The position numbers and the translations under genes are program-made. The notes below the pieces were generated by a model. That model did not search any database. It saw only the letters and a list, made by a program, of their open reading frames with translations, and was not told the origin of the DNA. From Clostridia bacterium (GTDB lineage Bacteria; Bacillota; Clostridia; UBA1381): a stretch of 64,000 bases of DNA. This document shows positions 13,467 to 62,725 of this stretch, in pieces. The DNA lies in the NCBI GenBank assembly GCA_017443895.1, contig JAFSXU010000004.1, forward strand, positions 1 to 64,000, in the 5' to 3' direction. Position 1 is the first letter of the stretch. Each line of letters begins with the position of its first letter.

Positions 13467-13490
13467 AAAACATATTCATATATCTGTTTT

Positions 13491-13604
13491 CTTCTCTCAT
13501 CCGGACTATGACCGTCGGTTTGGGAATTTCACCCAATCAGTTCTGAATTTATCAGAAGTCGTGGACTTTACCACCGGTAGGGACTCTCACCCTGCCCTGA
13601 AGAC
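13491..13604 (-). ncRNA. FMN riboswitch (RFN element)
   Basis: On the minus strand the classical RFN blocks are present in order: TCAGGGCAGGGTGA, CCCTACCGGTGGT, AAGTCCACGA, a variable hairpin, GATTGGGTGAAATTCC, CCGACGGTCATAGTCCGGAT and a closing GAGAG. It senses FMN and controls ribU through the adjacent terminator. Confidence 0.97.
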
Positions 13605-13655
13605 ACATTATTAAACTGTATACATTCTACATCATATATGCTGTATTGTCAATAC

Positions 13656-15787: not shown

Positions 15788-15994
15788 TATTACCCTGAGA
15801 TTACTCGTGGACAAGATCTTTTTTTTACCAACACATTTTACAAGGGATGCCTGCTCCGAAAAGTGGCGTATACGCCTCCTTTCCTTTACGGACTGCCAGT
15901 GGACATATAAAGCTTTTGGGCGGCGACCCACCTGCGTTAGCAGGTAGAAACTCGATCTTTATTATACGGTAGTTTTGGGGTTTTTCTTTTTTTT
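15788..15994 (+). ncRNA. ssrS: Probable 6S RNA (SsrS)
   Basis: 6S RNA mimics an open promoter and sequesters housekeeping RNA polymerase. The ends pair in a 14-bp closing stem with wobbles: ACCCTGAGATTACT (15792-15805) with GGTAGTTTTGGGGT (15968-15981). The middle has a GGCG-TATA-CGCC apical hairpin. On the 3' side GGCGACCCACCTGC is followed by a small GCAGGT hairpin, the layout I recognise from the 3' side of the 6S central bubble. The length of about 195 nt fits, and a T-rich run follows. This is from pattern recall, not a covariance search. A minus-strand ORF across it looks spurious. Confidence 0.72.
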
Positions 15995-39095: not shown

Positions 39096-39130
39096 TCTTA
39101 TCAAAAACCCATTATAAAGAGGTATTGTAT

Positions 39131-41497
39131 ATGAATATATTAGACAGACTTGGCAAGGAAATACTGTTTTTTGACGGTGCAATGGGTACTGCCATACAGA
39201 ATGTGCTTGACCTTGACGGACAAAGCGGTGAAATTTTAAATATTGAACACCCCGATATTATAAAAAAGATACACTGTGATTATCTTGATGCGGGCTGTGA
39301 TATTATAACCACAAACACCTTCGGTGCAAACCCGTTTAAGGCTGAATATTTAAAGTACCCGATAGAGGATATTATAAGCAGTGCCATAAAAATTGCAAAA
39401 GATGCCGTATCGGGATATGAAAACAGATATGTTGCCTTTGATTTAGGTCCTACCGGAAAATTATTGGAGCCTATAGGTCCTGTTTCATTTGACGAATGCT
39501 ACGAGGCTTTTAAGACCGTTGTTAATATTGCAAAGGAATACGGCGTTGACCTGTTTATAATAGAAACAATGTCCGATACCTTAGAGGCAAAGGCGGCATT
39601 GCTTGCGGTAAAGGAAAACTCGGACTTGCCCGTATTTTGTACCATGACCTTTGACGAGTCGCATAAAACCTTGACAGGTGCAGATGTTACGATAATGTCT
39701 CAAATGCTTGAGGGGCTTGGCGCGGACTGTATCGGTATAAACTGCGGTTTGGGACCTCGGCACATCTCGCCCATGATACAGGATTTATTATCCGTTTCGT
39801 CAATTCCGTGTATGGCACAGCCAAATGCAGGCTTACCCGAAATTATAAACGGTCAGACACAGTATAATGTATCGCCTAAAGACTTTGCCATGCAGTGTGA
39901 GGAAATGGCAAAGCAGGGTATTTCCATACTTGGCGGTTGTTGCGGAACAACGCCCGATCATATTCAAGAAATGGTTAAGCTCTGCCGTGGCTATACCCCA
40001 AAGATTACCAAAAACAATGAAACGATAGTATGCTCATACTCAAGATATGTTAAGCTTGACGACCGTCCTGTTATAATCGGTGAGAGAATCAACCCGACAG
40101 GTAAGAAAAAATTTAAAGAGGCGCTCAAAAACAACGATATAAATTATGTATTAAACGAAGCAATAAAGCAGGCGGAGGCAGGGGCGCACATATTGGATGT
40201 AAATGTGGGCTTGCCCGAAATTTGCGAGTGTGAAATGATGGAAACAGTCGTAAAAGCGATTTCATCAACCGTGAATTTGCCGTTACAGATTGACTCGTCT
40301 GATGTAGCCACGCTTGAGAGGGCGCTCAGGATTTACAACGGAAAGCCGATGCTAAATTCCGTAAACGGAAAGGCGGAAAGTCTTGACAAGATACTGCCAA
40401 TCGCAAAAAAATACGGTGCGGTTGTTGTAGGTCTTTGCCTTGACGATAACGGAATACCAAAAACAGCAAGAGAGCGGTTTGAGATTGCAAAGCGTATAGC
40501 GGATAAAGCAAAGGAGTACGGGATTTGCAAGCGTGACCTTGTAATGGACGCCTTAACGCTTACAATTTCAGCACAGCAAACAGAGGCAGCCCAAACCATA
40601 ACAGCTCTTAAAATGATTAAAGATGAGCTTGGAATAAAAACGGTTTTGGGTGTGTCAAACATATCGTTTGGACTACCCAAGCGTGAGTATGTAACAAGCA
40701 CATTCTTTGCTCTTGCGCTAAACGGCGGCCTTGATGCGTGCATTATAAATCCGTGCGCAGACTCAATGATGAATGTATACCGCGCGTATCGGGCGTTATC
40801 GTGCATTGACGAAAACTGTACGGATTATATTGAGGCATACACCGAAAAAGAGGAAAGTGTTGAGGTTTCTCATAACGAGCTATATTCTGCCATTTTAAAC
40901 GGCTTGTATGATGCGTCGTTTGATATTGCAAAGGAAATGCTAAAAACCGAGGCTCCTCTTGATATAATAAACTCTACCGTCATTCCGGCTCTTAACGATA
41001 TTGGTAAGCAGTTTGAAACGGGCAAGGCGTTTTTGCCACAGCTTATAATGAGCGCGGATACCGTATCAAATGCATTCCGCGCGATAAAGGAGGAAATGAA
41101 CAAATCCGGCAGCGGCGCCCAGATGCGTGAAAAGATTGTTATTGCAACGGTTGAGGGCGATATTCACGATATTGGCAAGAATATTGTAAAAACCCTGCTT
41201 GAAAATTACGGGTACGAGATGATAGATTTAGGCAAAAATGTGCCTGCGGAGGATATAGTAAGGGCGCTTATTGAAAATGATGCTCATGCTCTGGGACTGA
41301 GTGCGCTTATGTCAACAACCGTTAAGGGTATGGAGCGGACAATAAAATTAGTAAGAGAGGCAAACCTTGATGTCAAGGTATTTGTAGGCGGTGCAGTGCT
41401 TACACAGGAGTATGCCGACATGATAGGCGCAGACGCTTACTGCTCCGACGCCCTGGCATCGGTAAATTATGCAAATAAAATCTTCGGTTATAACTAA
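39131..41497 (+). CDS. metH: Cobalamin-dependent methionine synthase lacking the reactivation domain
   Basis: Transfers methyl from 5-methyl-THF via cobalamin to homocysteine. The 788-aa protein carries the homocysteine domain (about 1-290; zinc ligands in GINCG and GGCCGTTP), the pterin domain (about 310-570; GERINPTGKKK and DVNVGLPE), the B12 cap (about 580-655) and the B12 domain with EGDIHDIGKNIV, whose His is the lower axial ligand. It ends soon after, so the C-terminal SAM-dependent reactivation domain of E. coli MetH is absent, as in many Firmicutes. I use ATG at 39131 (AGAGG eight bases upstream), not TTG at 39125. It needs cobalamin, linking it to the B12-uptake operon at 53-62 kb. 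Confidence 0.96.
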   Translation: MNILDRLGKEILFFDGAMGTAIQNVLDLDGQSGEILNIEHPDIIKKIHCDYLDAGCDIITTNTFGANPFKAEYLKYPIEDIISSAIKIAKDAVSGYENRYVAFDLGPTGKLLEPIGPVSFDECYEAFKTVVNIAKEYGVDLFIIETMSDTLEAKAALLAVKENSDLPVFCTMTFDESHKTLTGADVTIMSQMLEGLGADCIGINCGLGPRHISPMIQDLLSVSSIPCMAQPNAGLPEIINGQTQYNVSPKDFAMQCEEMAKQGISILGGCCGTTPDHIQEMVKLCRGYTPKITKNNETIVCSYSRYVKLDDRPVIIGERINPTGKKKFKEALKNNDINYVLNEAIKQAEAGAHILDVNVGLPEICECEMMETVVKAISSTVNLPLQIDSSDVATLERALRIYNGKPMLNSVNGKAESLDKILPIAKKYGAVVVGLCLDDNGIPKTARERFEIAKRIADKAKEYGICKRDLVMDALTLTISAQQTEAAQTITALKMIKDELGIKTVLGVSNISFGLPKREYVTSTFFALALNGGLDACIINPCADSMMNVYRAYRALSCIDENCTDYIEAYTEKEESVEVSHNELYSAILNGLYDASFDIAKEMLKTEAPLDIINSTVIPALNDIGKQFETGKAFLPQLIMSADTVSNAFRAIKEEMNKSGSGAQMREKIVIATVEGDIHDIGKNIVKTLLENYGYEMIDLGKNVPAEDIVRALIENDAHALGLSALMSTTVKGMERTIKLVREANLDVKVFVGGAVLTQEYADMIGADAYCSDALASVNYANKIFGYN

Positions 41498-41531
41498 CCA
41501 AAAGATTTATATATTATGGGAGGTAACTTAA

Positions 41532-42797
41532 ATGAAAATTGAAACAAAATGCATTCAGGAGGGCTATAAGCCAAAAAACGGAGAGCCCAGAGTTCTGCCG
41601 ATTTATCAATCGACCACATACAAGTATGACAGTGCCGATTTTATGGGTAAGCTCTTCGACTTGGAGGAGGAAGGATTTTTCTATACCCGACTTGCAAATC
41701 CTACAGTTGACGCGGTAGAGAAAAAGATTGCAGCTCTTGAGGGCGGTGTGGGAGCAATGCTCACATCGGCAGGTCAGGCGGCAACGCTTATTTCAATCAC
41801 AAACATTGCAGGCGCAGGCGACCATATTATCTGCTCAACCGCAGTTTACGGCGGTACTTTTAACCTTTTGGGCGTAACGCTTAAAAAATTGGGTATTGAA
41901 ACCACCTTCGTTGACCCCGACCTTGACGAGGAGGAGCTTTTAAAGGAGTTCCGCCCAAATACAAAAGCAGTCGTTGGCGAAACTATCGCAAACCCTGCCC
42001 TAAATGTTTTGGATATTGAGAAGTTTGCAAGAATTGCACACGCAAACAAGGTACCGTTGATTGTTGATAACACATTCGCAACACCTATACTTTGCAGACC
42101 GTTTGAGTTCGGTGCGGATATTGTTATCCACTCAACCTCAAAGTATATGGACGGCCACGCTGTTGCTTTGGGCGGTGTAATAGTTGACAGCGGTAATTTT
42201 GACTGGGAGGCATCGGGAAAGTTCCCTGAATTTACCGTACCTGATGACTCATATCATGGCGTTATATATACCAAGAATTTCGGCAAGGCGGCATACATTG
42301 TAAAGGCTCGTGCACAGCTTATGCGTGATTTAGGCTCAATGATGGCACCGCAGAATGCGTTTTTATTGAATATCGGACTTGAAACCCTGCATCTTAGAAT
42401 GCCATACCATAGTCAAAACGCCTTAAAGGTTGCGGAGTTTTTGGAAAAAGACCCACGAGTTACATGGGTAAATTACCCCGGACTTCCAAGCTCAAAATAT
42501 AAGCCATTGGTTGATAAATATATGCCTTTGGGCGCATCGGGAGTTGTTTCATTCGGTGTTAAGGGCGGAAGAGATGCGGCGGTTAAGTTCCTTGACGGAC
42601 TTAAAATTGCAGCTATTGTTACTCATGTGGCAGACGCAAGAACATGTGCCCTGCACCCTGCATCTACAACACACCGTCAGCTTACGGATGAACAGCTCCT
42701 CGCAGGCGGAGTAAGCCCCGACCTTATCCGTTTCAGTGTCGGCATTGAAAATGTTGACGATATTATCGCCGATATTGACCAAGCCTTGGGAAAATAA
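41532..42797 (+). CDS. metY: O-acetylhomoserine sulfhydrylase
   Basis: PLP enzyme that makes homocysteine from O-acetylhomoserine and sulfide. The 421-aa Cys/Met-metabolism protein shows YTRLANPTVDAVEKKIAALE (20 residues), TSAGQAA, the PLP-Lys motif HSTSKYMDGH and the C-terminal SVGIEN..DDII pattern. Length near 425 favours MetY over cystathionine gamma-synthase or lyase (about 380). GGGAGG supports the start. As the third gene of the operon it supplies homocysteine to MetH. Confidence 0.94.
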   Translation: MKIETKCIQEGYKPKNGEPRVLPIYQSTTYKYDSADFMGKLFDLEEEGFFYTRLANPTVDAVEKKIAALEGGVGAMLTSAGQAATLISITNIAGAGDHIICSTAVYGGTFNLLGVTLKKLGIETTFVDPDLDEEELLKEFRPNTKAVVGETIANPALNVLDIEKFARIAHANKVPLIVDNTFATPILCRPFEFGADIVIHSTSKYMDGHAVALGGVIVDSGNFDWEASGKFPEFTVPDDSYHGVIYTKNFGKAAYIVKARAQLMRDLGSMMAPQNAFLLNIGLETLHLRMPYHSQNALKVAEFLEKDPRVTWVNYPGLPSSKYKPLVDKYMPLGASGVVSFGVKGGRDAAVKFLDGLKIAAIVTHVADARTCALHPASTTHRQLTDEQLLAGGVSPDLIRFSVGIENVDDIIADIDQALGK

Positions 42798-51890: not shown

Positions 51891-53213
51891 TTGAAGAAAA
51901 TAGGAATGAAATTCCTATGTAGTTTCTGTGCGGCTGTAATTTTTATGTCAACCATTTCTTTCGGGCTTATTCCGTTTGTCAAAGCTGATGAGCCTGTGGG
52001 GAAAATGTCATCGGTTTATGGGTATATCCTAAATGATTATATAATGAAATACGGAGTTATGAGTACGGACAAGAACGGCGCTATATTTGACAGCACCGGA
52101 AATACCATAACCCCAAGCGGTGTTGTTTACGGAGATATTTTGAATTTTGATAACAACAACTGCCCCTATCTTGTGATATTCGTCGCAGACAGTGAATATA
52201 AGAGTGCGGAGTGTCATTTATGGCTATATAACGATGAAACAAAAAAAGCCCGTCGCATTGCGGTAATTGAAAAAAGCTATAGCGATATTCCAAAGGATAT
52301 GATAGGCGAATTCAATATTGCATGGAAAAACGAAAAGCGGTATATTACCTTTAATACATATCAGAATAATGTGGAGCAACAAAAGGAGGTATACACCGTT
52401 ATAAACGGTGAAGCATATATGTACATAAACAACCCTGCGGACATAACCGAGGTGGGAATTATGGACTATAATGCCTACTACTTCCACCCCGGCATTGATG
52501 TTTCCGATTACAACAAACAGCTTGATGTATTCTTTACAAAGCTAAAGGATACGGCTGCAAAAAGCGTTACATATGAGAACATCGTAACCAAATTAAGCGC
52601 TGAGGATAAAACACAAATAAACCGTGTTTTAATAAAATCCGCTCTCTACTGCGATTTTGATATAAAGAATTATACTTCGCTTGATGAGTATAACGAGGGG
52701 CTTACCATTACAACATCATCGGATAAGTTTACACAGCTTAGTGCAATTTATAGCTTGGGCGATGATATATACTATGCAAAATTTGATACAAACCGTACAA
52801 ATTATAACTATGCACTGCTTAGAAAAACAGATGCGTTAGATGACGGTTATCAGATTTTGAAGGTAAGAACGGACTGTATTCCGCTTGCGGATATTGAGTT
52901 AAAGCAAGCACGATATGAATACTCGCAAAATCCGCTTATTATGGCAAAATCAAAAACTACAATGGAGTTAAATGAGAATAAGACTGCGGTAACTCCCACA
53001 AGTACCAATGTCACTGTAAAGGTCGGGGATAATGAGCCGATAACGGTAACAAAAGCACCTGAGCCCACACCCGACATAAAAGAAACCGATAAGAAAATAA
53101 GCATAAAGAAAATTTTAGACGATAAAGTTAAGTTACCTATTGCCTGCACAGGCGGCGGAATTGCAATTGCATTGCTGACTTTTTTGTGGGTTTATATGTA
53201 TGAGGATGAATAA
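51891..53213 (+). CDS. Exported protein of unknown function with C-terminal membrane anchor
   Basis: A 440-aa protein I do not recognise. A signal peptide is visible (KFLCSFCAAVIFMSTISFG, cleavage near VKA, about residue 30), then about 350 residues of extracellular alpha/beta sequence (repeated YAKFDTNRTNYNY-like and ITFNTYQNNV segments), a Thr/Pro-rich linker (about 370-405), and a single hydrophobic helix (about 415-435) before a short acidic tail. This places it as a wall-facing, C-terminally anchored protein. The start is TTG, with AAAGGAGG ten bases upstream; ATG five codons later is possible. It is preceded by a long structured leader and followed by its own terminator. Confidence 0.8.
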   Translation: MKKIGMKFLCSFCAAVIFMSTISFGLIPFVKADEPVGKMSSVYGYILNDYIMKYGVMSTDKNGAIFDSTGNTITPSGVVYGDILNFDNNNCPYLVIFVADSEYKSAECHLWLYNDETKKARRIAVIEKSYSDIPKDMIGEFNIAWKNEKRYITFNTYQNNVEQQKEVYTVINGEAYMYINNPADITEVGIMDYNAYYFHPGIDVSDYNKQLDVFFTKLKDTAAKSVTYENIVTKLSAEDKTQINRVLIKSALYCDFDIKNYTSLDEYNEGLTITTSSDKFTQLSAIYSLGDDIYYAKFDTNRTNYNYALLRKTDALDDGYQILKVRTDCIPLADIELKQARYEYSQNPLIMAKSKTTMELNENKTAVTPTSTNVTVKVGDNEPITVTKAPEPTPDIKETDKKISIKKILDDKVKLPIACTGGGIAIALLTFLWVYMYEDE

Positions 53214-53448: not shown

Positions 53449-53958
53449 TTAATATTCTATTCCCTCTCTTGCCTTTGTGCCATTATCGTATGGGTGCTTT
53501 ACCTTATCAATACGGCTTACATAATCGCAAAGGTCAACAAATTTTTCATCCTCACCCCTGCCCGTTATTACAAGCTCTTTATCATCGGGGAAAGACTTTA
53601 CAAATTCATATGCCATATCATAGTCAAGATAGCCGTAATTTAGGGCAACCAAAAATTCATCAAGCACAACCATATCATAATCGGGTATTGCTTTTGATAT
53701 TTCGTTTAATTTTTCATTGTAGTACGGCTTTAATTTGTCAATCTTCTCCTTTGAATATGTCCATACCTCTTCAATGTTTTCAAGCGCCTCTAAAACGGTT
53801 AAGTTTGAGAGCTTGGACAATACCTTTATCTCGCTTGATTTACCGTCCTTTAAGAACTGATAAAAGGCTACCTTTTTACCTGCGCCCAAAGCCCGTATAA
53901 TCATACCTATAGAAGCAGTTGTCTTTCCTTTTCCGTCTCCTGTGTAAATGTGTTTCAT
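53449..53958 (-). CDS. cobO: Cob(I)alamin / corrinoid adenosyltransferase, CobA-BtuR type
   Basis: Adds the 5'-deoxyadenosyl group to reduced corrinoids. The 169-aa protein opens with the P-loop YTGDGKGKTTASIGM typical of the CobA/CobO/BtuR family, and has VVLDEFLVALNYGYL (Walker B-like) and ELVITGRG. It is shorter than E. coli BtuR (196 aa), as in many Firmicutes. Its start overlaps the end of the ECF fusion gene by 4 bp (ATGA-type junction), showing it is the last gene of the cobalamin-riboswitch operon. Imported corrinoid would be converted directly to the coenzyme form. Confidence 0.94.
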   Translation of the reverse strand: MKHIYTGDGKGKTTASIGMIIRALGAGKKVAFYQFLKDGKSSEIKVLSKLSNLTVLEALENIEEVWTYSKEKIDKLKPYYNEKLNEISKAIPDYDMVVLDEFLVALNYGYLDYDMAYEFVKSFPDDKELVITGRGEDEKFVDLCDYVSRIDKVKHPYDNGTKAREGIEY

Positions 53959-56336
53959 AATTTTAACCTCCCGTATTTTGTTTGTATTCTGCTAAATTCC
54001 TCTAAGATAGGCTTTGATATAAGCCAGAGGAATATAAATGTACCTACAGCGTGTATCAAATCAAACGGTATGCCGAGCGCATAAACCGACATTATAAGCT
54101 CCTTTGTTATTACCTCATTATACATTAAAACCGTTGATAGGTTCATGACCGCACCGTATATTAAAAACACCAAAACCGCACCGATAATTGATATTGTATG
54201 TTTTCTGCATTTTATAAGACCACTGTTAAAAATCAGTCCGGAGCAAAGTCCAATTCCGCCCATTGCAAGCATTTGCCAAGGCGTCCACGGTCCTTGCCCG
54301 AAAAAGAAATTTGAAACAAACACGCCCATAGCACCGACTATAAACCCCGATGTAGGTCCCAATGCAATGCCCGATACTATAACCACCGCCGCCATGGGCT
54401 TTACCTGCGGTATAAAATAAAACAGCACTCTTGACAAGCCTGCAATTACCGTCATACTTGATGTAACAGTAATGCCCCTTGCGCCAAGACGCTTTTTTTC
54501 AAACCCTGCAAAATAGGGTATCATACTTTCAAGTATTACAAGCATGGATATTATATAATATTTTCTGTCCCCCAATACCCTGTTTCCGACAAATACGGTA
54601 ATGACGCATAAGATCATGGATATTATAAAATACGGTATAAGTCTTTTTACATCCTTTTTATTATCAAACTCTACGCTCATATCAGTCTTTAAAATCCCGC
54701 CTGCCACACTCTTACTCTTTGGCGGAGTGTAATTTGCTATTTTAAATTCCGTATCTTTTTGATTAACCTTACCGCCAAGCGCCTTTATAACCTCATCAAC
54801 CGTTATTGCGTCGGGGATTTTATCCCTTGCAATCCTGTTTGCATCGGTGGTATAAAAGGTATTGTTTCTAAAAAACGAATGAGTTTTTGAAACACTCACA
54901 ATTGCGCCGTCAAAGAGCATGGCGCACCTTTGGGACACCTCGGCGCAAAACTCGGTATCATGGCTTACTATAACGATTGTTTTTCCGTTGTTTGAAAGAG
55001 TTTTTAAAATGTGTACAAGCTCCCGTTTAAATTCCGCATCAAAGCCCTTTGTCGGCTCATCAAGCAATAATATATCCCGATTGAGTAACAGCACCTTTGC
55101 AAGAGCGAGCTTTTGCATTTGACCTCCCGATATATCGTATGGGTGCGCTCGCAAAATGTCACCAAGTCCCAAAAGAGAGACTACATAATCAATATCACAC
55201 GATATTTCTCTTAGCTCATCATACACCGTCTTTTTTGTAAACAGATTTTTTACATCCTGCATAAGATATGATACCGTGCTTTCTACCACACACTTACCGC
55301 GATATTGCTTGTTTATTCCTGATATGACACCCAAAAGCGTGGATTTTCCTGCGCCGTTACCTCCCATAACAGAGAGTATCTCGCCCCTATATACATCAAG
55401 GCTTAAGTTTTTAAGTACATCACGGGCATTTTTATCATATTTAAAATATATGTTTTTAAGCTGTATCTGAGGCTCTGTATTTATATCCGTATCTGAGATT
55501 TTAATATCCGATACATTCATTTTATCAAGCCATGCTCTGCCCTCGCCGACTGTTACGGGACACTCGTATTCATTTTCCACACCTGCCCAAATTTGCATAG
55601 CCTGTGGGAAACCCAAAAACATAGAGCTCATATTATCACGGAGATATTTGGCACATTCCTTTATTTTGCCGATAAATTCCACTCTGCCCTCATCCATAAG
55701 GCATATTCTGTCGCACCTGTGCGCAAGGCGGGAAAGTCTGTGCTCGGCTAAGACTACCGTTATTCCAAGCTCTTTATTTATCCTGCACACCAAATCAATA
55801 AGCCTGTCCGCCATAAGCGGATCAAGCTGTGAGGTTGGCTCGTCAAGAAGCAGTATATCGGGATTTGTGCACATAAGCGATGCAAGATTTAAAATTTGCA
55901 GTTCACCGCCCGATAATTCATTTGTGTTTTTGTAAAACCACTCCTCGATCCCGAAAAACTGCGCCACCTCAGAAACTCGTCTCCGTATCTCGCCCTGACT
56001 ATATCCAAGGCTTTCAAGTCCGAATGCAAGCTCATGATACACCTTATCCGTAACAATTTGGCTTTTGGCGTTCTGCATAACGATTGCAATTTTGCTTGCT
56101 TCATCATACCTTGATAATGTGTTTATATCCTCGCCAAACACCAATACCTCGCCCGACACCTTGCCGTTTGGGCGGATTGTGTGTTTTAGCTGTCTTAAAA
56201 GCGTTGATTTCCCCGAGCCTGATTTTCCGTACAGGAGCAGTAGTTCGCCGCGAGCTACAGTCATATCAATGTCACGCAGACTAAATTTATCGGGATATTC
56301 AAAGCTAAAATTTGAAAATTCTATCGCCTTTTCCAT
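53955..56336 (-). CDS. Fused ECF transporter: two ABC ATPases plus S component (EcfA-EcfA-CblT-like)
   Basis: A 793-aa three-module protein. Module 1 (about 1-255) is an EcfA ATPase: Walker A GKSGSGKST, signature LSGGELQ, Walker B ILLLDEPTSQLDP. Module 2 (about 290-490) is a second ATPase: GGNGAGKST, ISGGQMQ, ILLLDEPTKGFDAE. Module 3 (about 575-793) is a six-helix membrane domain with FFFGQGPWTPWQMLAMGG, resembling S components of the CblT group, which were predicted from B12-riboswitch control to import cobalamin or its lower-ligand precursor. EcfA chains and S proteins are normally separate. The gene overlaps ecfT by 16 bp. Corrinoid specificity is inferred from the operon, not from binding residues. 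Confidence 0.9.
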   Translation of the reverse strand: MEKAIEFSNFSFEYPDKFSLRDIDMTVARGELLLLYGKSGSGKSTLLRQLKHTIRPNGKVSGEVLVFGEDINTLSRYDEASKIAIVMQNAKSQIVTDKVYHELAFGLESLGYSQGEIRRRVSEVAQFFGIEEWFYKNTNELSGGELQILNLASLMCTNPDILLLDEPTSQLDPLMADRLIDLVCRINKELGITVVLAEHRLSRLAHRCDRICLMDEGRVEFIGKIKECAKYLRDNMSSMFLGFPQAMQIWAGVENEYECPVTVGEGRAWLDKMNVSDIKISDTDINTEPQIQLKNIYFKYDKNARDVLKNLSLDVYRGEILSVMGGNGAGKSTLLGVISGINKQYRGKCVVESTVSYLMQDVKNLFTKKTVYDELREISCDIDYVVSLLGLGDILRAHPYDISGGQMQKLALAKVLLLNRDILLLDEPTKGFDAEFKRELVHILKTLSNNGKTIVIVSHDTEFCAEVSQRCAMLFDGAIVSVSKTHSFFRNNTFYTTDANRIARDKIPDAITVDEVIKALGGKVNQKDTEFKIANYTPPKSKSVAGGILKTDMSVEFDNKKDVKRLIPYFIISMILCVITVFVGNRVLGDRKYYIISMLVILESMIPYFAGFEKKRLGARGITVTSSMTVIAGLSRVLFYFIPQVKPMAAVVIVSGIALGPTSGFIVGAMGVFVSNFFFGQGPWTPWQMLAMGGIGLCSGLIFNSGLIKCRKHTISIIGAVLVFLIYGAVMNLSTVLMYNEVITKELIMSVYALGIPFDLIHAVGTFIFLWLISKPILEEFSRIQTKYGRLKL

Positions 56337-57199
56337 ATTATAGCCTCCGTAAAATCAATAATTATCGGTATGGCGCATAAAATTGCATACATGGTATATG
56401 CAAGATAGGAAAATATACCGATGTTTGTATATACACACGGGAAATATACAAAGTCTATTATACCAAATGCTTTAGACACCAAAACCGCAGTTAAAAGCAT
56501 TAAAATCACAACAAGGCACACCGTATCACGGTATGTAAACTCAAAAACGGAAAATGCCGTTCTTTTTACCGTTGCATAACCCCTTGCATACATACTGTCG
56601 GCAGTGTCAACCGATTCTTCCAAGGTTCTGTTTACCAATACATTCAACACCGAAGCCATATTCTTTACTCTATCGGCAATACTGCCTTGATAAACCGATT
56701 TCCCTATTGCAGTTTGGGCGTTTATAATGCTTTTTCCCTCGTTTAAGAGCTTTGGGAAAAATCTCATGGACATGGTAAAGAGCATTGATATTTTGGGCAC
56801 AGCCCTGCCGAATAAATACGCAATTTTATCGCTTGTTATTATCACATTAAAGCAGGAAAACCAGCATATAACACATATAAGCATTACACCCTCACACATT
56901 CCAAATAGGATTGACTCAAGCGTAAGCGGATTACCGTTTGAAAAATATGCTATCACCGTTTGTCCGTTATGGTTAAATAACGGATTTAATACCGCCGTAA
57001 AAACTGCTAAAATTACGGCATATTTTAAGCTTTGCCTAAGCCTTTTGCCTGCTGTTAAAAGTCCGTAGCTAACGGCACAAACAAGCGATATTAAAAGCAG
57101 TATCGGGTTAAACCAAAGCATGGTAAGAATTAAAACCGATACAAAGTATACAAAGCTCACAATCGGATTTAATTTATAGAAAGCATCTACCTTGTTCAC
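56321..57199 (-). CDS. ecfT: ECF transporter transmembrane coupling protein EcfT (CbiQ family)
   Basis: Couples ATP hydrolysis by the EcfA modules to toppling of the S component. The 292-aa protein has several N-terminal membrane helices, a cytoplasmic coupling region with the Ala-Arg-Gly motif in DSMYARGY (second coupling helix) and a further hydrophobic C-terminus. The first coupling helix, normally similar, is less clear. Start is GTG with AGGAGG upstream. With the fusion protein downstream it completes a dedicated group I ECF transporter rather than a shared one. Confidence 0.93.
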   Translation of the reverse strand: MNKVDAFYKLNPIVSFVYFVSVLILTMLWFNPILLLISLVCAVSYGLLTAGKRLRQSLKYAVILAVFTAVLNPLFNHNGQTVIAYFSNGNPLTLESILFGMCEGVMLICVICWFSCFNVIITSDKIAYLFGRAVPKISMLFTMSMRFFPKLLNEGKSIINAQTAIGKSVYQGSIADRVKNMASVLNVLVNRTLEESVDTADSMYARGYATVKRTAFSVFEFTYRDTVCLVVILMLLTAVLVSKAFGIIDFVYFPCVYTNIGIFSYLAYTMYAILCAIPIIIDFTEAIIWKRR

Positions 57200-57208
57200 G
57201 ACTACCTC

Positions 57209-57982
57209 CTACTTAAACTCTTTCGTATCTCCTATGTCTTTGCCTAAGTTACAAGTATATAAAAAACATATATCATCACCGTTTTTAACCTTGTACTGCG
57301 AGGAGCTGTAGCCCGGAAATTCACCGTTTACCGAATACATCCACCCCGACAGTTGTCCGCAGTCAAATTCGTACAGATTATTTATGCCCTCAATATAAAT
57401 GGAATTATAGGCAGGGGTCTTTGAAAATTCAAGATGAATTTTATTCTCCCTTGTTATCCGTTTTAATACATCAAATACCGTTTCGTTATCTTGTATCTCT
57501 GTCTGTGTTTTTGCCAGAATTATTCCGTCCCTTGGCACAAGCCCCGCTTTTTCGGGCTTTAGCTTGTCAAGGTTATCATTTACCGTGTGGCAATCAATAC
57601 TTATTGTGCAGCATTGCTCGTTTTTATCGTTGTTAGCTTCACCGCTATCATATATATCTTTATCAACAACAGCATCAGGCTCTTTCTCATTATCCTCTCC
57701 ATTTACTGTTGTTTCTTCTTTAACATTTTCAATCTGTTTTTCGGTTTCACTTTTGCCGTCTTTTGGTTTTTCTGTCGGCTCGGATGCTTGTTCTTCCTTT
57801 TGAGTATGCTTATTAAAAGCAGTGTTTTGATGTTTTTCTGCTTTTGGGATTTGGTATTCTCTGTTATCAACCGTTTGGTTAAAGCCTGCAAAGCACCACA
57901 CGATTGATATTATAAGCATAATAATTATCGCACCCATTATAGGGATATGATATTTTTTAAATATATCCTTTAATCGTTCCAT
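57209..57982 (-). CDS. Membrane-anchored DUF4430 (transcobalamin C-terminal-like) protein
   Basis: A 257-aa protein with an N-terminal transmembrane anchor (about 13-33), a long Lys/Glu/Asn-rich extracellular tether (about 40-125) and a DUF4430 domain (about 130-250) with the diagnostic SGWMYSVNGEFPGYSSSQY and KNGDDICFLYTC. In animal transcobalamin and intrinsic factor this beta fold covers one face of the corrinoid. The tether would let the domain reach through the wall to hand ligand to the ECF transporter encoded by the next two genes. The start overlaps the SLH-barrel gene by 13 bp. Corrinoid binding is inferred. Confidence 0.88.
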   Translation of the reverse strand: MERLKDIFKKYHIPIMGAIIIMLIISIVWCFAGFNQTVDNREYQIPKAEKHQNTAFNKHTQKEEQASEPTEKPKDGKSETEKQIENVKEETTVNGEDNEKEPDAVVDKDIYDSGEANNDKNEQCCTISIDCHTVNDNLDKLKPEKAGLVPRDGIILAKTQTEIQDNETVFDVLKRITRENKIHLEFSKTPAYNSIYIEGINNLYEFDCGQLSGWMYSVNGEFPGYSSSQYKVKNGDDICFLYTCNLGKDIGDTKEFK

Positions 57983-59394
57983 AAAATTCTTGAAACCGCC
58001 CTTGCCGCCTCAATTCGGGTTGCGCCCGTTCTTGGGGCTATAGTATCACTTGCATTGAATAAATTATTTATATAACAGTATGCAACAGCCTCCCTTGCCC
58101 AGTCCGAAACTTGGCTAAAGTCGGCATATTTTTCTATACCGTCATAGTTTTTAACTTCTGTGTCAATACCAAAATAGTTACAAAGCCTTGTAAGCATAAT
58201 TGCAAGCTCTTCTTTTTTGATATTGCCGTTTGGATTAAATCTTGTTTTGGTTACACCTTGTACAATCCCGTACATTGCCGCAGTGTTTACGCTAATCCTG
58301 AACCAATCGTCATTTGAAACATCGCTAAAATAGTTTGTGCTTGGCAAATCAAGCGTGTTTTTTGTTGACATTGCACGAACCATTATAGCTGTCATTTCCG
58401 CTCTTGTAAGATGGGTATCGGGCGAGAATTTAACATCTGTTTTTCCGTTTATAACGCCCTTTTTATACAGCATAGCAAGCGCTTTTGTGTCCGCATCCAA
58501 AACATCTATAAACGGGCATATACCAAAGCTCTCATTATCAGATGTACGCTTTATGCCATCCCTCATATCATACAAGCTGTTTTTGTTGTTTTCGTATCTG
58601 TTAAGCGCAACAAGCGCAAGCGTTCCCTGCTCCGTTGCCATTGCATTTTTCTCACCGTCCATGGTATGCAAAAAATATCCGTCCTTATAGTATTTCATAA
58701 GCTCGGTTACATACCTGTCAGGTATCATATTAAGCGCGCAAAATGCAATAACCGTCTGCGCCGCACTCTCGGAGCTTTCAATTTTAGCATCATTTATGTA
58801 GTTTACAGCCTTAACTACAGTGTCACCTACCCTATTATCGTCTTTATAAAAGGACAGTGCCTGTAACGCCATTGCGGTTACATCAACATCTGAGCTATCC
58901 TCCATAAGTCCGAAACCGCCGTCATTATGCTGTGAATTTATAATATAGTCTAAATACCTGTCTTTAACATCGCTTTGCGTGGTTTTTGAGTTTAGGGCAA
59001 TAAGCGCAAATATTGCACCGTTTATCCCCTGGGACACTACCGCGTCATAGTCAAAAAGCTTTTCTTCTATTCCCATAGTATCCTCGCCTATGGCGTTTAT
59101 CGCAAGGATAAGTCTTGAATAATCTGTGTATCTTGATACATTACTGTTTTTAATAAAGTCCTTTACCCTGCTATAATAGCTATCATAATACGGTCTATTG
59201 ACCGCCATATCGCCTCTTGATATGGCAATAACCGCCCAATCTCCGCCGATTGAAGAAACATCGGGCTTTTGGTTATCCTCCAAAAGCAAAGAAAGAGCCT
59301 GTGATAATGTATCGTTTTTTTCATACTCTGTGGCATTTACATTTACCGTAAGCATTACAAAAACACATAAGAATACAGCTATTCTCTTTAACAT
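57970..59394 (-). CDS. Surface alpha/alpha-barrel protein with three SLH domains
   Basis: A 474-aa exported protein: signal peptide (about 1-22), an alpha/alpha barrel of prenyltransferase/squalene-cyclase-like repeats (about 40-285; YIINSQHNDGGFGLMEDSSD with VDVTAMALQALSFY), then three S-layer homology domains (about 310-474; LTRAEMTAIMVRAM, IKKEELAIMLTRLC, TRIEAARAVSRIL). The barrel is the fold that forms the alpha domain of intrinsic factor and transcobalamin; nothing suggests terpene chemistry. SLH domains would pin it to the wall. Start ATG at 59394 with GAGGAG upstream. It follows the DUF4430 protein closely, consistent with a split two-domain corrinoid binder. Confidence 0.9.
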   Translation of the reverse strand: MLKRIAVFLCVFVMLTVNVNATEYEKNDTLSQALSLLLEDNQKPDVSSIGGDWAVIAISRGDMAVNRPYYDSYYSRVKDFIKNSNVSRYTDYSRLILAINAIGEDTMGIEEKLFDYDAVVSQGINGAIFALIALNSKTTQSDVKDRYLDYIINSQHNDGGFGLMEDSSDVDVTAMALQALSFYKDDNRVGDTVVKAVNYINDAKIESSESAAQTVIAFCALNMIPDRYVTELMKYYKDGYFLHTMDGEKNAMATEQGTLALVALNRYENNKNSLYDMRDGIKRTSDNESFGICPFIDVLDADTKALAMLYKKGVINGKTDVKFSPDTHLTRAEMTAIMVRAMSTKNTLDLPSTNYFSDVSNDDWFRISVNTAAMYGIVQGVTKTRFNPNGNIKKEELAIMLTRLCNYFGIDTEVKNYDGIEKYADFSQVSDWAREAVAYCYINNLFNASDTIAPRTGATRIEAARAVSRILWND

Positions 59395-59414
59395 TATCAC
59401 CAGCTCCTCATATT

Positions 59415-60359
59415 TTACCATTCTATATACTCTGCCAAATCATCGCCGTATGCGCAGGTATATATAATCTCCACCCTGTCGCCGTCCTGTAGCTTGTAAC
59501 CGCCTACAGGTGCCATGGGCACCTCGCCGTTTACTCTATACATCCAGCCCGACTGGCGGTTTACAAATTTATATGTTGCATTCGGATTTAGCTTAACATT
59601 GTAGTATTCGCCTATTATGCCGATAGCCCTTACATAATTACTGTCGCCCACGACCTCTAAATCGTTATCAGACGCCGCAAGCATCAGAGCATCATATACC
59701 GTCATACCCTCTTCAAGCTCGTATTGAACAGCCCTTGACATAATACCGTTTGGAGGCAGATTTTCCCAAATATCCTCGGTTGAATCATCATTTGTTATTG
59801 CGTTTCTGCAATCTATGACAAGCGCATAACAGCCTTCATGTATTTTAACCTTTTCAATGCCGTTTGTTGCCGCAACCTTTGGTCGCTCTGCCACCTCAGG
59901 GGTTGGCTCGGGAGTAGGCTCAGGCGTTACTTCGGTATCCTGCTCCGCCTTTGGGGTGGCAGCCGGTTTTGTAACCGTTCCGCCTCCTCCGCCTCCGCCC
60001 GATGTTCCCGTATTGGGCCTTGGTGTCGGCACGGGTGTTGGGGTTACGGTCGGTGTAGGTGTGGGAACATACGGGGACAGGACAGGTGTTATATAACTGC
60101 CGTTTTCCATATCCCACACACGGACACTCACACTGTTGTCGGGCATGGAAATTTCCGCCCCTTTTGTGCCCTCTTTTACTATTCTTGCACCGCACAGCCT
60201 GTTACTGTCATCATAAAATGACAGCACTATCACGCTCTTATCAGTTTTTGCAATAATATTATTTTCGTTGGTTATGTAGAATAAATCTTCCGCAAGTGAC
60301 ACTGTACCCTGAAAAATCAGGGCAAGTGTCATTATTAAGCTAAGTATAATTTTTTTCAT
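59415..60359 (-). CDS. Exported DUF4430 protein with Pro/Thr and poly-Gly linker
   Basis: A 314-aa secreted protein: signal peptide (about 1-23), a short beta domain (about 25-95), a low-complexity linker (about 97-165: PTPTPTVTPTPVPTP, a run of seven Gly, then EPTPEPTPE), and a C-terminal DUF4430 domain (about 175-310) with EGMTVYDALMLAA, SGWMYRVNGEVP and KLQDGDRVEIIYTC. It matches the transcobalamin beta-domain family. The linker looks like a wall-spanning spacer. It lies 17 bp after the barrel protein gene and ends 21 bp before the SLH-barrel start. Its role as a corrinoid-binding half-site is inferred. Confidence 0.9.
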   Translation of the reverse strand: MKKIILSLIMTLALIFQGTVSLAEDLFYITNENNIIAKTDKSVIVLSFYDDSNRLCGARIVKEGTKGAEISMPDNSVSVRVWDMENGSYITPVLSPYVPTPTPTVTPTPVPTPRPNTGTSGGGGGGGTVTKPAATPKAEQDTEVTPEPTPEPTPEVAERPKVAATNGIEKVKIHEGCYALVIDCRNAITNDDSTEDIWENLPPNGIMSRAVQYELEEGMTVYDALMLAASDNDLEVVGDSNYVRAIGIIGEYYNVKLNPNATYKFVNRQSGWMYRVNGEVPMAPVGGYKLQDGDRVEIIYTCAYGDDLAEYIEW

Positions 60360-60376
60360 TATTCACTCCGATATAA

Positions 60377-62167
60377 TTATTTAATATTGAATACTACAGG
60401 TTTTTGGTTGCTTTCCCAAAGCATTACCTTACCGCCGTCAAACTCGGGCTTAAAGTAGTTTAAGCTACCCATTTTAAGGTCAAATGCGTTATTGAAATAC
60501 ACCTTATCAAGTGTTCCGTTTTCGTTATATTTAACGCTTATTGCCGTTACGGTATCGTTTTTCGGCGCAGATACGCTGTAACCGCCGTCATTATGCGATT
60601 TTATGGATACTGTATCAGCCGTATCTGACATATCGTAGAGTGCAGTGTCATTATGTATCGCTCTCTTATGTGATGCAAGAGCATATAAAGCCTGCTGGCG
60701 TGTAATTGTTGCGTTCCACTGTGATGTAAAGCCGTTCTCGCTGTCATAATAGCTTAACATCTTTTCAAAATACTTGCTTGAATCAAGCCCCAGCGTATTA
60801 TATGCAATAACAACCTGCGCATTTGCTTCAACGCCTGTTATGTCCGTTTTTTCTATAAGGGCAATACAGCCGTCTATCATAGCCTGTACCTTTTCATCAT
60901 TTCTGTATTTTGCAAGCGCCTGAATTGCAATTGCGGTTGTGTCGATATCGGCGTATGTTGCACCGCCCCAGCTATAACCGTAACCACCGCCCTCGAGCTG
61001 TGAGCTTATTATATAGTCAATAAGCCTTTGTCTTGTGTTTTGGTCGCTTGCATCGCCAATATCCGCAAAATCCAAACTTTTGGCGTCCATTGCGATAAGC
61101 GCATACATTGCCTGTGATACATAAGAGCCTTTTGAGGTGTCGTATGATGAAAGCACCTCAATAAATTCTTGCGGAACCTCAAGCCCGAGCGCAGATAATG
61201 CAATAACTACCCTGTCATAATCGTTTGCGCCTGTCATTTTACCGTTTTGATATGCATCCGTTACAGAATTATAATATTTTTCCTTGTCCGCATCGCTTAT
61301 TGCATATCCGCCTCTTGCAAGTCCTAAAATATTCCACTCCTCGCCGAATACAAACGAGGTTTCAAGCTGTGTGGCAGTTTTATCATATGGGTCAATTACC
61401 TCCACCGTAAACGGGGACAAAATCACAGGTAAGCCCTGCACTGTTTCACCCATAAATGAGAGTGTATATGTTCCTACCTTATCAAATGTAACGGTTATGT
61501 TTCCATCCTCATCGGTAAAGGCTTTTTCATCAACCAAAACGGGGACATTGCTCTTGATATATGCAAGCTGAATATCCTCAACCCCTGCATACGGAGTTTC
61601 CCAACCAAACATTGTACCCTGCGCATTTAAAACAGTTTTCTCGCCCTTTATAGCCTTTATGTCGTTATGCGGTACATATACATCCATATAATTTTCCGTA
61701 TCGGCATAGAAGAAAATTTCAAGCTTGTCGCCGTTTTCTATTTTTGTATACGGTGTATACAGGTTTTTGGTATTGTGCGCATAGCTAAAGCCTGCGCCAA
61801 GTCCGAACATGTTCGAGAAAAATCCGTTGCTTATGGCAATGTAGTCGCCTGCTGTTTCCAAATTAAAGTCCGCACCGTACATTTCCTCGTTAAGCTTTAC
61901 CATTGCGTCAATTACCGAAACGCCGTCCTTGACGGTATCTGAAAAGCCAAAGCTCTCCGCCTCATTTGATAAAACGCTTAATTCATCACACATAAGCATA
62001 AATGCCGCATCATCCGTTGCGTATCCGCTCGTTGACACATACGCTGAAATTTTTGCCTCTGTCGGCTCACTTACCTCATTGTCCGCAAATGCGACAAAAA
62101 CAGGTGTTGTTACACCCATTATTGCAGATAGGATACCTGCAATACCTCTTTTTAACATTTTTTTCAT
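60377..62167 (-). CDS. Intrinsic-factor-like exported protein: DUF4430-like plus alpha/alpha barrel
   Basis: First structural gene of the cobalamin-riboswitch operon, 596 aa. It has a signal peptide (about 1-28), a DUF4430-like domain (about 75-157; GVSVIDAMVKLNEE and IENGDKLEIFFYAD), an Ig-like stretch (about 200-270), an alpha/alpha barrel (about 275-505; DYIISSQLEGGGYGYSW, IDTTAIAIQALAKY) and a beta-rich tail. Intrinsic factor and transcobalamin combine the same two folds in the opposite order. With B12 control and a downstream ECF importer, corrinoid capture is the natural inference. No SLH or sortase motif is visible, so retention may depend on partners. A strong AGGAGG supports the start. 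Confidence 0.9.
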   Translation of the reverse strand: MKKMLKRGIAGILSAIMGVTTPVFVAFADNEVSEPTEAKISAYVSTSGYATDDAAFMLMCDELSVLSNEAESFGFSDTVKDGVSVIDAMVKLNEEMYGADFNLETAGDYIAISNGFFSNMFGLGAGFSYAHNTKNLYTPYTKIENGDKLEIFFYADTENYMDVYVPHNDIKAIKGEKTVLNAQGTMFGWETPYAGVEDIQLAYIKSNVPVLVDEKAFTDEDGNITVTFDKVGTYTLSFMGETVQGLPVILSPFTVEVIDPYDKTATQLETSFVFGEEWNILGLARGGYAISDADKEKYYNSVTDAYQNGKMTGANDYDRVVIALSALGLEVPQEFIEVLSSYDTSKGSYVSQAMYALIAMDAKSLDFADIGDASDQNTRQRLIDYIISSQLEGGGYGYSWGGATYADIDTTAIAIQALAKYRNDEKVQAMIDGCIALIEKTDITGVEANAQVVIAYNTLGLDSSKYFEKMLSYYDSENGFTSQWNATITRQQALYALASHKRAIHNDTALYDMSDTADTVSIKSHNDGGYSVSAPKNDTVTAISVKYNENGTLDKVYFNNAFDLKMGSLNYFKPEFDGGKVMLWESNQKPVVFNIK

Positions 62168-62231
62168 TACTTTTTCCTCCTGTGAAACATTTTTTATTTG
62201 CGTTATAGGAAAATGTTAAAGCCTATAATGC

Positions 62232-62257
62232 AAAAAATCTGTCCCACAGAGACAGAT
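62232..62257 (-). terminator. Terminator of the cobalamin riboswitch expression platform
   Basis: Minus strand: ATCTGTC pairs with GACAGAT around TCTGTGG, followed by TTTTTT, 65 bp before the first operon gene. B12 binding would favour it and shut off the operon. Confidence 0.82.
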
Positions 62258-62330
62258 AAGCAAAAAACAGCTAAGATATATAATCTTAACTACCTCCTGT
62301 TTTTCAAATCCCTGTGAAAATCAGTTTTAC

Positions 62331-62500
62331 TTCTTGCAAATCGGTCTTCCGGCTCAGCTTCATTGCGTGTTTTGCCTTCCCAATTTCTCAGTGGCATAAT
62401 TAAAACACACTCCGCATTACGGCAGCAAGGACTGCGTGGGATTTACACCCATCTTCCCATGGGCGCTTTATTTTTATAAACGCACCGACAACTTATTTAA
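62331..62500 (-). ncRNA. Cobalamin riboswitch
   Basis: Minus strand contains the class hallmarks in order: GGGAAGATGGGTGTAAATCCC, with CGCAGTCCTTGCTGCCGTAAT-type core (key: TGCTGCCGTAA), a peripheral arm, GCCACTG, GGGAAGGC and the B12 box AGCCGGAAGACC. It controls the seven-gene corrinoid capture/import operon through the terminator at 62232. From the aptamer to 62725 I see no gene. Confidence 0.96.
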
Positions 62501-62725
62501 GATGCCCTAATTTGCAAAAACTCGGCATAAAAACCGTAATTCTTACACCTTCATATATGATACCATACTTACTACTTAAAAGCAAGCATAATTTATCCTT
62601 GTTTTTACTATTTTTATCCTATCCCGAACCCATACAAACCTTGACAAGAGAGACATTTTGTGCTACCCTAATATTACAGAATTACGACAGGTGTTTACTC
62701 TTATTTTTTGAAATGAGGAGCCGAT

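Follow-up and report, generated by a model that had tools for sequence, protein, structure and literature searches.

In the animal carriers intrinsic factor (IF) and transcobalamin (TC), vitamin B12 is held between an alpha barrel and a beta domain. In animal TCN proteins, a C-terminal domain designated DUF4430 has been noted (PMC4350170). Surface capture of B12 in bacteria is known from Bacteroides, where BtuG and BtuH, reported to be lipoproteins, are encoded with B12 import genes and feed the TonB-dependent BtuB (PMC6143338, PMC8941943). Among energy-coupling factor (ECF) transporters, ECF-CbrT of Lactobacillus delbrueckii (Protein Data Bank [PDB] entry 6FNP) imports cobalamin and cobinamide (PMC5997447), and genomes of Clostridium and Ruminococcus have annotated CbrTUV transporters (PMC9306216). 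For many gut genomes, a 2019 survey described B12 transport as an open problem (PMC6593275). Here we analyze the first 64,000 nucleotides (the window) of contig JAFSXU010000004.1 from a Clostridia bacterium of the UBA1381 lineage (assembly GCA_017443895.1). They carry an operon which, with a probability of roughly 84%, specifies an intrinsic-factor-like module that is anchored in the wall, captures corrinoids and feeds a CbrTUV importer, the whole forming a B12-repressed scavenging operon. Like BtuG and BtuH, its predicted capture proteins are encoded together with B12 import genes; the Bacteroides proteins differ in belonging to Gram-negative cells and in that no barrel/DUF4430 pairing has been described for them.

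Seven open reading frames, all on the minus strand, occupy positions 53449-62167 and are separated by intergenic gaps of at most 17 bp or overlap slightly. They are preceded by a cobalamin riboswitch, the sole RF00174 match in an Rfam scan of the whole genome, and a terminator lies between the riboswitch and the first gene. In 5′ to 3′ order the features are:

62322..62504, minus strand: cobalamin riboswitch aptamer RF00174 (cmscan 71.7 bits, E 1e-15, gathering score 31.5)
62237..62257, minus strand: rho-independent terminator, ATCTGTCTC-TGT-GGGACAGAT followed by TTTTT (hairpin and T-run in the sequence)
60377..62167, minus strand: P1, 596 amino acids (aa), exported; signal peptide, DUF4430-like N-domain, Ig-like stretch, barrel (253-525), C-terminal beta stretch
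59415..60359, minus strand: P2, 314 aa, exported; signal peptide, Pro/Gly-rich spacer, C-terminal DUF4430 (PF14478, 41.3 bits)
57970..59421, minus strand: P3, 483 aa, exported; alpha/alpha barrel (33-298) and three SLH repeats (PF00395, 84 bits)
57209..57982, minus strand: P4, 257 aa; N-terminal transmembrane helix, acidic/Lys-rich spacer, C-terminal DUF4430 (PF14478, 66.2 bits)
56321..57199, minus strand: EcfT transmembrane component, CbrV-type (PF02361 CbiQ, 39.7 bits)
53955..56336, minus strand: fused EcfA-EcfA-S; two ABC_tran stretches and a PF07155/PF12822 S domain (~562-793)
53449..53958, minus strand: ATP:corrinoid adenosyltransferase, CobA/BtuR (PF02572, 173.6 bits, E 5.8e-51, cut-off 25.7)

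The operon as described in a first-pass annotation of the window is confirmed, and it is not a chance arrangement, because this order of genes is found repeatedly across Bacillota. That annotation had placed seven same-strand genes behind a B12 riboswitch and terminator; strand, number and control elements stand, while the 21 bp that it gave as the upper limit of the gaps does not. It had also assigned barrel and DUF4430 domains to P1-P4, a dedicated B12-type ECF importer and a corrinoid adenosyltransferase to the operon, all of which the profile searches bear out. The RF00174 assignment places the riboswitch ligand in the B12 class and not in another, and the terminator is probably the expression platform of the riboswitch.

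Domain assignment of the four surface proteins relied on several methods. The DUF4430 matches of P2 and P4 both exceed the gathering cut-off of PF14478 (23.8 bits), and residues 253-525 of P1 match the alpha/alpha barrel profile at 1e-70, while the P3 barrel gave a weak prenyltransferase-type match in the Pfam search. The same search returned no DUF4430 match for P1; a P1 devoid of a DUF4430-like domain was considered and ruled out by hhalign, which aligned its N-terminal family (P1N) with the DUF4430 profile at a probability of 90 (E 1.5e-6). No lipobox accompanies the N-terminal transmembrane helix in the P4 sequence. Judged by their domains, P1 and P2 would be the products of two genes that together match one large P1N-barrel-DUF4430(-SLH) protein found in relatives, but have no SLH repeats; such fused proteins with SLH repeats are encoded at loci L048, L076, L101, L117 and L120. 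P3 and P4 are predicted to form another barrel/DUF4430 pair, this one conserved, in which the wall bears the alpha part and the membrane the beta part.

The following sequence of events is proposed. At low cellular B12 the riboswitch would let transcription proceed through the terminator, and two split pairs would be exported: P1 (barrel) with P2 (DUF4430), and the SLH-bearing P3 (barrel) with the membrane-tethered P4 (DUF4430). The barrel would serve as the alpha part and DUF4430 as the beta part, with the corrinoid clamped between them as in IF and TC. Corrinoid captured at the wall might then pass via P4 to the CbrT-type S domain of the EcfT and EcfA-EcfA-S complex, to be imported at the expense of ATP and adenosylated by CobA, until B12 sufficiency leads to shut-off by the riboswitch. 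In this scheme the riboswitch, the conserved gene order, the domain identities, the CbrT-type S domain and the alpha-plus-beta fold likeness to animal B12 carriers are computed results; that a corrinoid is bound, that separate proteins sandwich it and in which order they hand it on, we infer.

Conservation of the locus was examined in a set of 61 relatives, whose genomes were searched with P3, DUF4430, RF00174 and the Pfam family PF01122. About 20 full P3 orthologues were found, and the order shared by the relatives is riboswitch, large DUF4430/barrel/SLH protein, barrel-SLH protein, tethered DUF4430 protein, sometimes CobA, EcfT and EcfAA-S. Of 91 DUF4430 matches, 51 had an RF00174 on their own strand within the 12 kb upstream, and none lay near an RF00174 of the opposite strand; many of the remaining 40 are on contigs too short for the riboswitch linkage to be judged. 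A wider search with the barrel-family profile, using one genome per species, revealed at least 570 stretches that encode a barrel of this family; neighbourhood counts were made at 80 loci from among the matches listed, all of them in Clostridia or Bacilli. Their genera include Paenibacillus, Clostridium, Blautia, Flavonifractor, Cellulosilyticum, Solibacillus, Sinanaerobacter and Formimonas. At 61 of these 80 loci a DUF4430 gene lies no more than 300 bp behind a stand-alone (P3-type) barrel gene, and at 60 EcfT follows within 4 kb; an additional protein with both barrel and DUF4430 is encoded at 37. The P4-type gene directly precedes EcfT in nearly all loci. RF00174 is located directly upstream on the same strand at 23 of the 29 loci scanned with Rfam, including those of Paenibacillus, Clostridium, Flavonifractor, Solibacillus and Formimonas. 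The linkage of DUF4430 and barrel genes to B12 riboswitches across Clostridia, for which the first-pass annotation had proposed a neighbourhood search, is thereby corroborated. In a spread sample of the phylum, 62 of 398 genomes encode a barrel of this family at E ≤ 1e-20, not all of them necessarily linked to B12. Gene neighbourhoods of this kind indicate that barrel, DUF4430, EcfT and EcfAA(-S), in this order, constitute a widespread system, predicted for hundreds of Gram-positive genomes of Clostridia and Bacilli.

Plasmids of lactic acid bacteria carry the same combination. A CbrV-CbrU-CbrT locus on a plasmid of L. plantarum MF1298 has been published (PMC6722938), and on this plasmid, pMF1298-5, the next genes encode a barrel protein and a DUF4430 protein. 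On the mobilizable plasmid p1_CACC879 of Latilactobacillus curvatus (L154:6053-11695), a protein with barrel, MucBP and LPXTG is followed by DUF4430, EcfT, EcfAA and EcfS, the barrel protein being anchored by LPXTG in place of SLH. Judging by these two loci, the capture pair accompanies CbrTUV even where the style of wall anchoring differs. The pMF1298-5 barrel gene, situated between the CbrT and DUF4430 genes (L153:5456-6508), is annotated as ‘fucose-binding lectin II’ and matches the barrel profile at 1.5e-21; this label is probably a misannotation.

The likeness to animal B12 carriers is most apparent in relatives. PF01122, the Pfam model for eukaryotic cobalamin-binding proteins, was found at seven sites among the 61 relatives, all in barrels of homologous operons, two of them above the curated cut-off. 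Scores over this cut-off of 25 bits include 33.3 for L053 and 25.3 for G046. Among ten barrels tested, six had PF01122 as their sole Pfam match, namely L053 (above the cut-off), L054, L055, L056, L057 and L067, and in the phylum sample the model had any match in just 2 of the 398 genomes, one of these 292 bp below a cobalamin riboswitch. With so few matches, the notion that PF01122 responds to any toroid was discarded.

Several relatives (L057, L105, L056 and others) encode single-chain barrel-DUF4430 proteins with the domain order of IF. The model of the L105 protein (predicted local distance difference test [pLDDT] 89.5) was compared by Foldseek with 350,542 PDB chains, and its top 15 matches were all animal TC, haptocorrin or IF chains (E 2.7e-9 to 1.5e-7; 458-484 columns, spanning both domains). 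Terpene cyclases came after these 15, with about 294 columns covering the barrel only. The combination of barrel and DUF4430, modelled here for this relative and not for a chain of the window, is the discriminating evidence for an IF-type likeness. The relatives thus share with IF, TC and haptocorrin an alpha/alpha barrel and a small beta domain, in the same order and in one chain. In contrast to these carriers and to the one-chain arrangement that marks the IF family, the window has its alpha barrel and beta domain on separate genes of a bacterium; P3 would be SLH-anchored and P4 membrane-anchored, and corrinoid binding is a prediction. The pairing of an alpha barrel with an IF-type beta domain, put forward in the first-pass annotation, agrees with these matches. 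A grouping of the barrels with true cyclases or glycosidases, which that annotation named as evidence against its reading, is not borne out by these matches or by the motif analysis below.

A number of results weigh against the capture reading, most of them concerning the barrels. Those of P1 and P3 had no PF01122 match at E ≤ 1 in the Pfam search; membership of this family is not claimed for the window barrels, since they are below its detection. Barrel sequence profiles run against PDB matched squalene-hopene cyclases and gave no IF or TC match. For the P3 barrel (AlphaFold model, pLDDT 92.3, predicted template modelling score 0.90), Foldseek ranked TC first and IF second among PDB chains, with cyclases at a nearly equal E-value, while VIA-align placed cyclases (Z 22.3) above IF (2PMV, Z 18.9); because of this tie and this order, the barrel alone demonstrates only the common toroid. 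The rigid overlay of L105 on IF and TC was poor (template modelling score 0.3-0.4), so the model is silent on the mutual orientation of the two domains. Beyond the barrels, P1 and P2 have no wall anchor visible in sequence, RF00174 was not found at six of the 29 scanned loci (L077, L080, L083, L085, L092, L108), and ECF-CbrT of Lactobacillus is active in liposomes without a capture protein (PMC5997447). As to further comparisons, VIA-align of the fused L105 model aligned the barrel only, with IF and TC not among the 50 matches listed, an absence that does not count against the likeness, and the DUF4430 profile gave no IF or TC match in PDB.

The barrel-only searches, which tie with or favour cyclases and glycosidases, fit an arrangement in which corrinoid is bound by the DUF4430 domains only, or by the S domain only, and the barrels are wall- or glycan-binding scaffolds derived from terpene-cyclase- or glycosidase-type toroids; the SLH repeats on the P3 barrel and the secretion of some relatives' barrels without SLH are compatible with it. 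Against this stand PF01122 as the sole Pfam match on barrels of several related operons, the fusion of barrel and DUF4430 in IF order in relatives, and the absence of the class II cyclase motif DxDD from every barrel of two alignments, with 38 and 59 sequences, in which one Asp and one Gln, Asp148 and Gln233 in the numbering of alignment A1, are invariant. We consider such scaffolds unlikely. Class II terpene cyclases, including squalene-hopene cyclases, have the toroid fold and a repeat-type sequence similarity in common with the barrels, which differ in being exported, SLH-linked and paired with DUF4430 under a B12 riboswitch. That the barrels themselves are terpene cyclases was rejected on the motif, the genetic context and the fused DUF4430 partner.

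The missing anchors of P1 and P2, which might be released, also bear on another explanation, namely that the main role of the surface proteins is to store corrinoids, to keep them from competitors or to take them from other carriers, with no direct hand-off to the importer. Removal of B12 from intrinsic factor at the cell surface is known for Bacteroides BtuG (PMC6143338). P4, however, is membrane-tethered and its gene directly precedes EcfT at nearly all loci, which makes this explanation improbable.

The importer resembles those of the B12 kind. EcfT and two ECF ATPase domains are encoded together, as in a CbrTUV-type transporter; the NCBIfam ECF_ATPase models scored 283 and 278 bits on EcfA-EcfA, under their equivalog cut-offs of 315 and 330, and CobA was likewise below its NCBIfam equivalog cut-off (136.5 versus 167.75). 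The S domain of the window, searched alone against PDB, had one match, 6FNP (E 4.1e-8), making CbrT its nearest solved relative, and the profile of its family matched 6FNP at 1.2e-18 and RibU at 3.6e-6. By these similarities the importer is assigned to the CbrTUV type, with ATP-driven cobalamin uptake predicted. It shares with ECF-CbrT the CbrT-type S domain, EcfT and a duplicated ATPase, but its S domain is fused to both ATPases and the wall-anchored and tethered capture proteins are encoded ahead of it, whereas the characterized ECF-CbrT was studied without any capture protein. Since CbrT also moves cobinamide (PMC5997447), the same architecture may prefer an incomplete corrinoid or a particular cobamide, such as cobinamide or pseudocobalamin, and salvage rumen or gut cobamides. 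The rumen and gut habitat of near relatives and the adenosyltransferase within the operon are in keeping with such a preference, while RF00174 and MetH are compatible with any cobamide; we regard it as possible, though rather doubtful.

The host genome (completeness 99.5%) offers a context for the predicted import. CbiD was not found in it, so corrin-ring synthesis is probably lacking, and a search for a B12-type FecCD importer yielded nothing beyond one weak 277-aa match. One gene is a likely destination of imported corrinoid:

39125..41497, plus strand: MetH-like methionine synthase (PF02310, 1.5e-28), the only B12-binding-domain protein of the genome

This enzyme is the likely consumer. With no CbiD, a single weak FecCD match, one riboswitch and one MetH-like B12 protein, the host is, as far as its gene content tells, probably a B12 auxotroph dependent on the operon. 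Its nearest named relatives are metagenome-assembled genomes from rumen and gut. The MetH-like gene is followed by one resembling those for pyridoxal phosphate-dependent sulfhydrylases/cystathionine synthases (39125-42797, plus strand), and the two make up a methionine locus some 11 kb away from the operon.

Further observations concern the surroundings of the operon and the barrel family. The operon ends past CobA, as the next gene (51891-53213) is on the opposite strand; this plus-strand gene, convergent with the operon end, encodes an exported 440 aa protein with a C-terminal transmembrane helix and without matches in Pfam or NCBIfam. A flavin mononucleotide riboswitch (13485-13608, minus strand) and a 6S RNA (15789-15985, plus strand) in the window both exceed their Rfam gathering scores. 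The same genome encodes a third barrel-family protein (G000:C34:41931-42740, 504 aa frame, E 1e-26), away from operon and riboswitch. In Sinanaerobacter (L084, 9550-19930) two B12 riboswitches lie on opposite strands, one ahead of barrel-DUF4430-ECF genes and the other ahead of a fused P1N-barrel-DUF4430-SLH protein. The NCBIfam model NF053823, ‘SCO2321 family membrane protein’, weakly matches the barrels of P3, L087 and L119 (best 7e-11). Its name points to a gene family of Streptomyces coelicolor, and the matches suggest that the barrel/DUF4430 system may have an actinomycete counterpart.

The transporter class is known, and the capture module appears to be undescribed. No description of barrel/DUF4430 capture proteins in bacteria was found in the literature searched, which left subscription journals mostly outside its coverage, and surface capture of B12 in Gram-positive bacteria is not described there. 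Parts of the module may have been predicted before, since InterPro labels DUF4430 ‘transcobalamin-like’ and SEED has an entry for an accessory lipoprotein of a predicted ECF transporter for cobalamin. The computed evidence taken together supports the earlier reading of the operon. More tentatively, at somewhat less than even odds, the locus may represent a bacterial intrinsic-factor system in which alpha and beta halves on wall and membrane anchors clamp corrinoid and relay it to the CbrT importer, and with which the animal IF/TC family shares ancestry or from which it was acquired.

If the capture reading is true, a function would be provided for DUF4430 and for many surface proteins annotated with ‘prenyltransferase repeats’. 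It would explain how Clostridia and Bacilli carrying the operon compete for corrinoids and capture scarce B12, and the origin of the animal B12 carriers would become a testable question.

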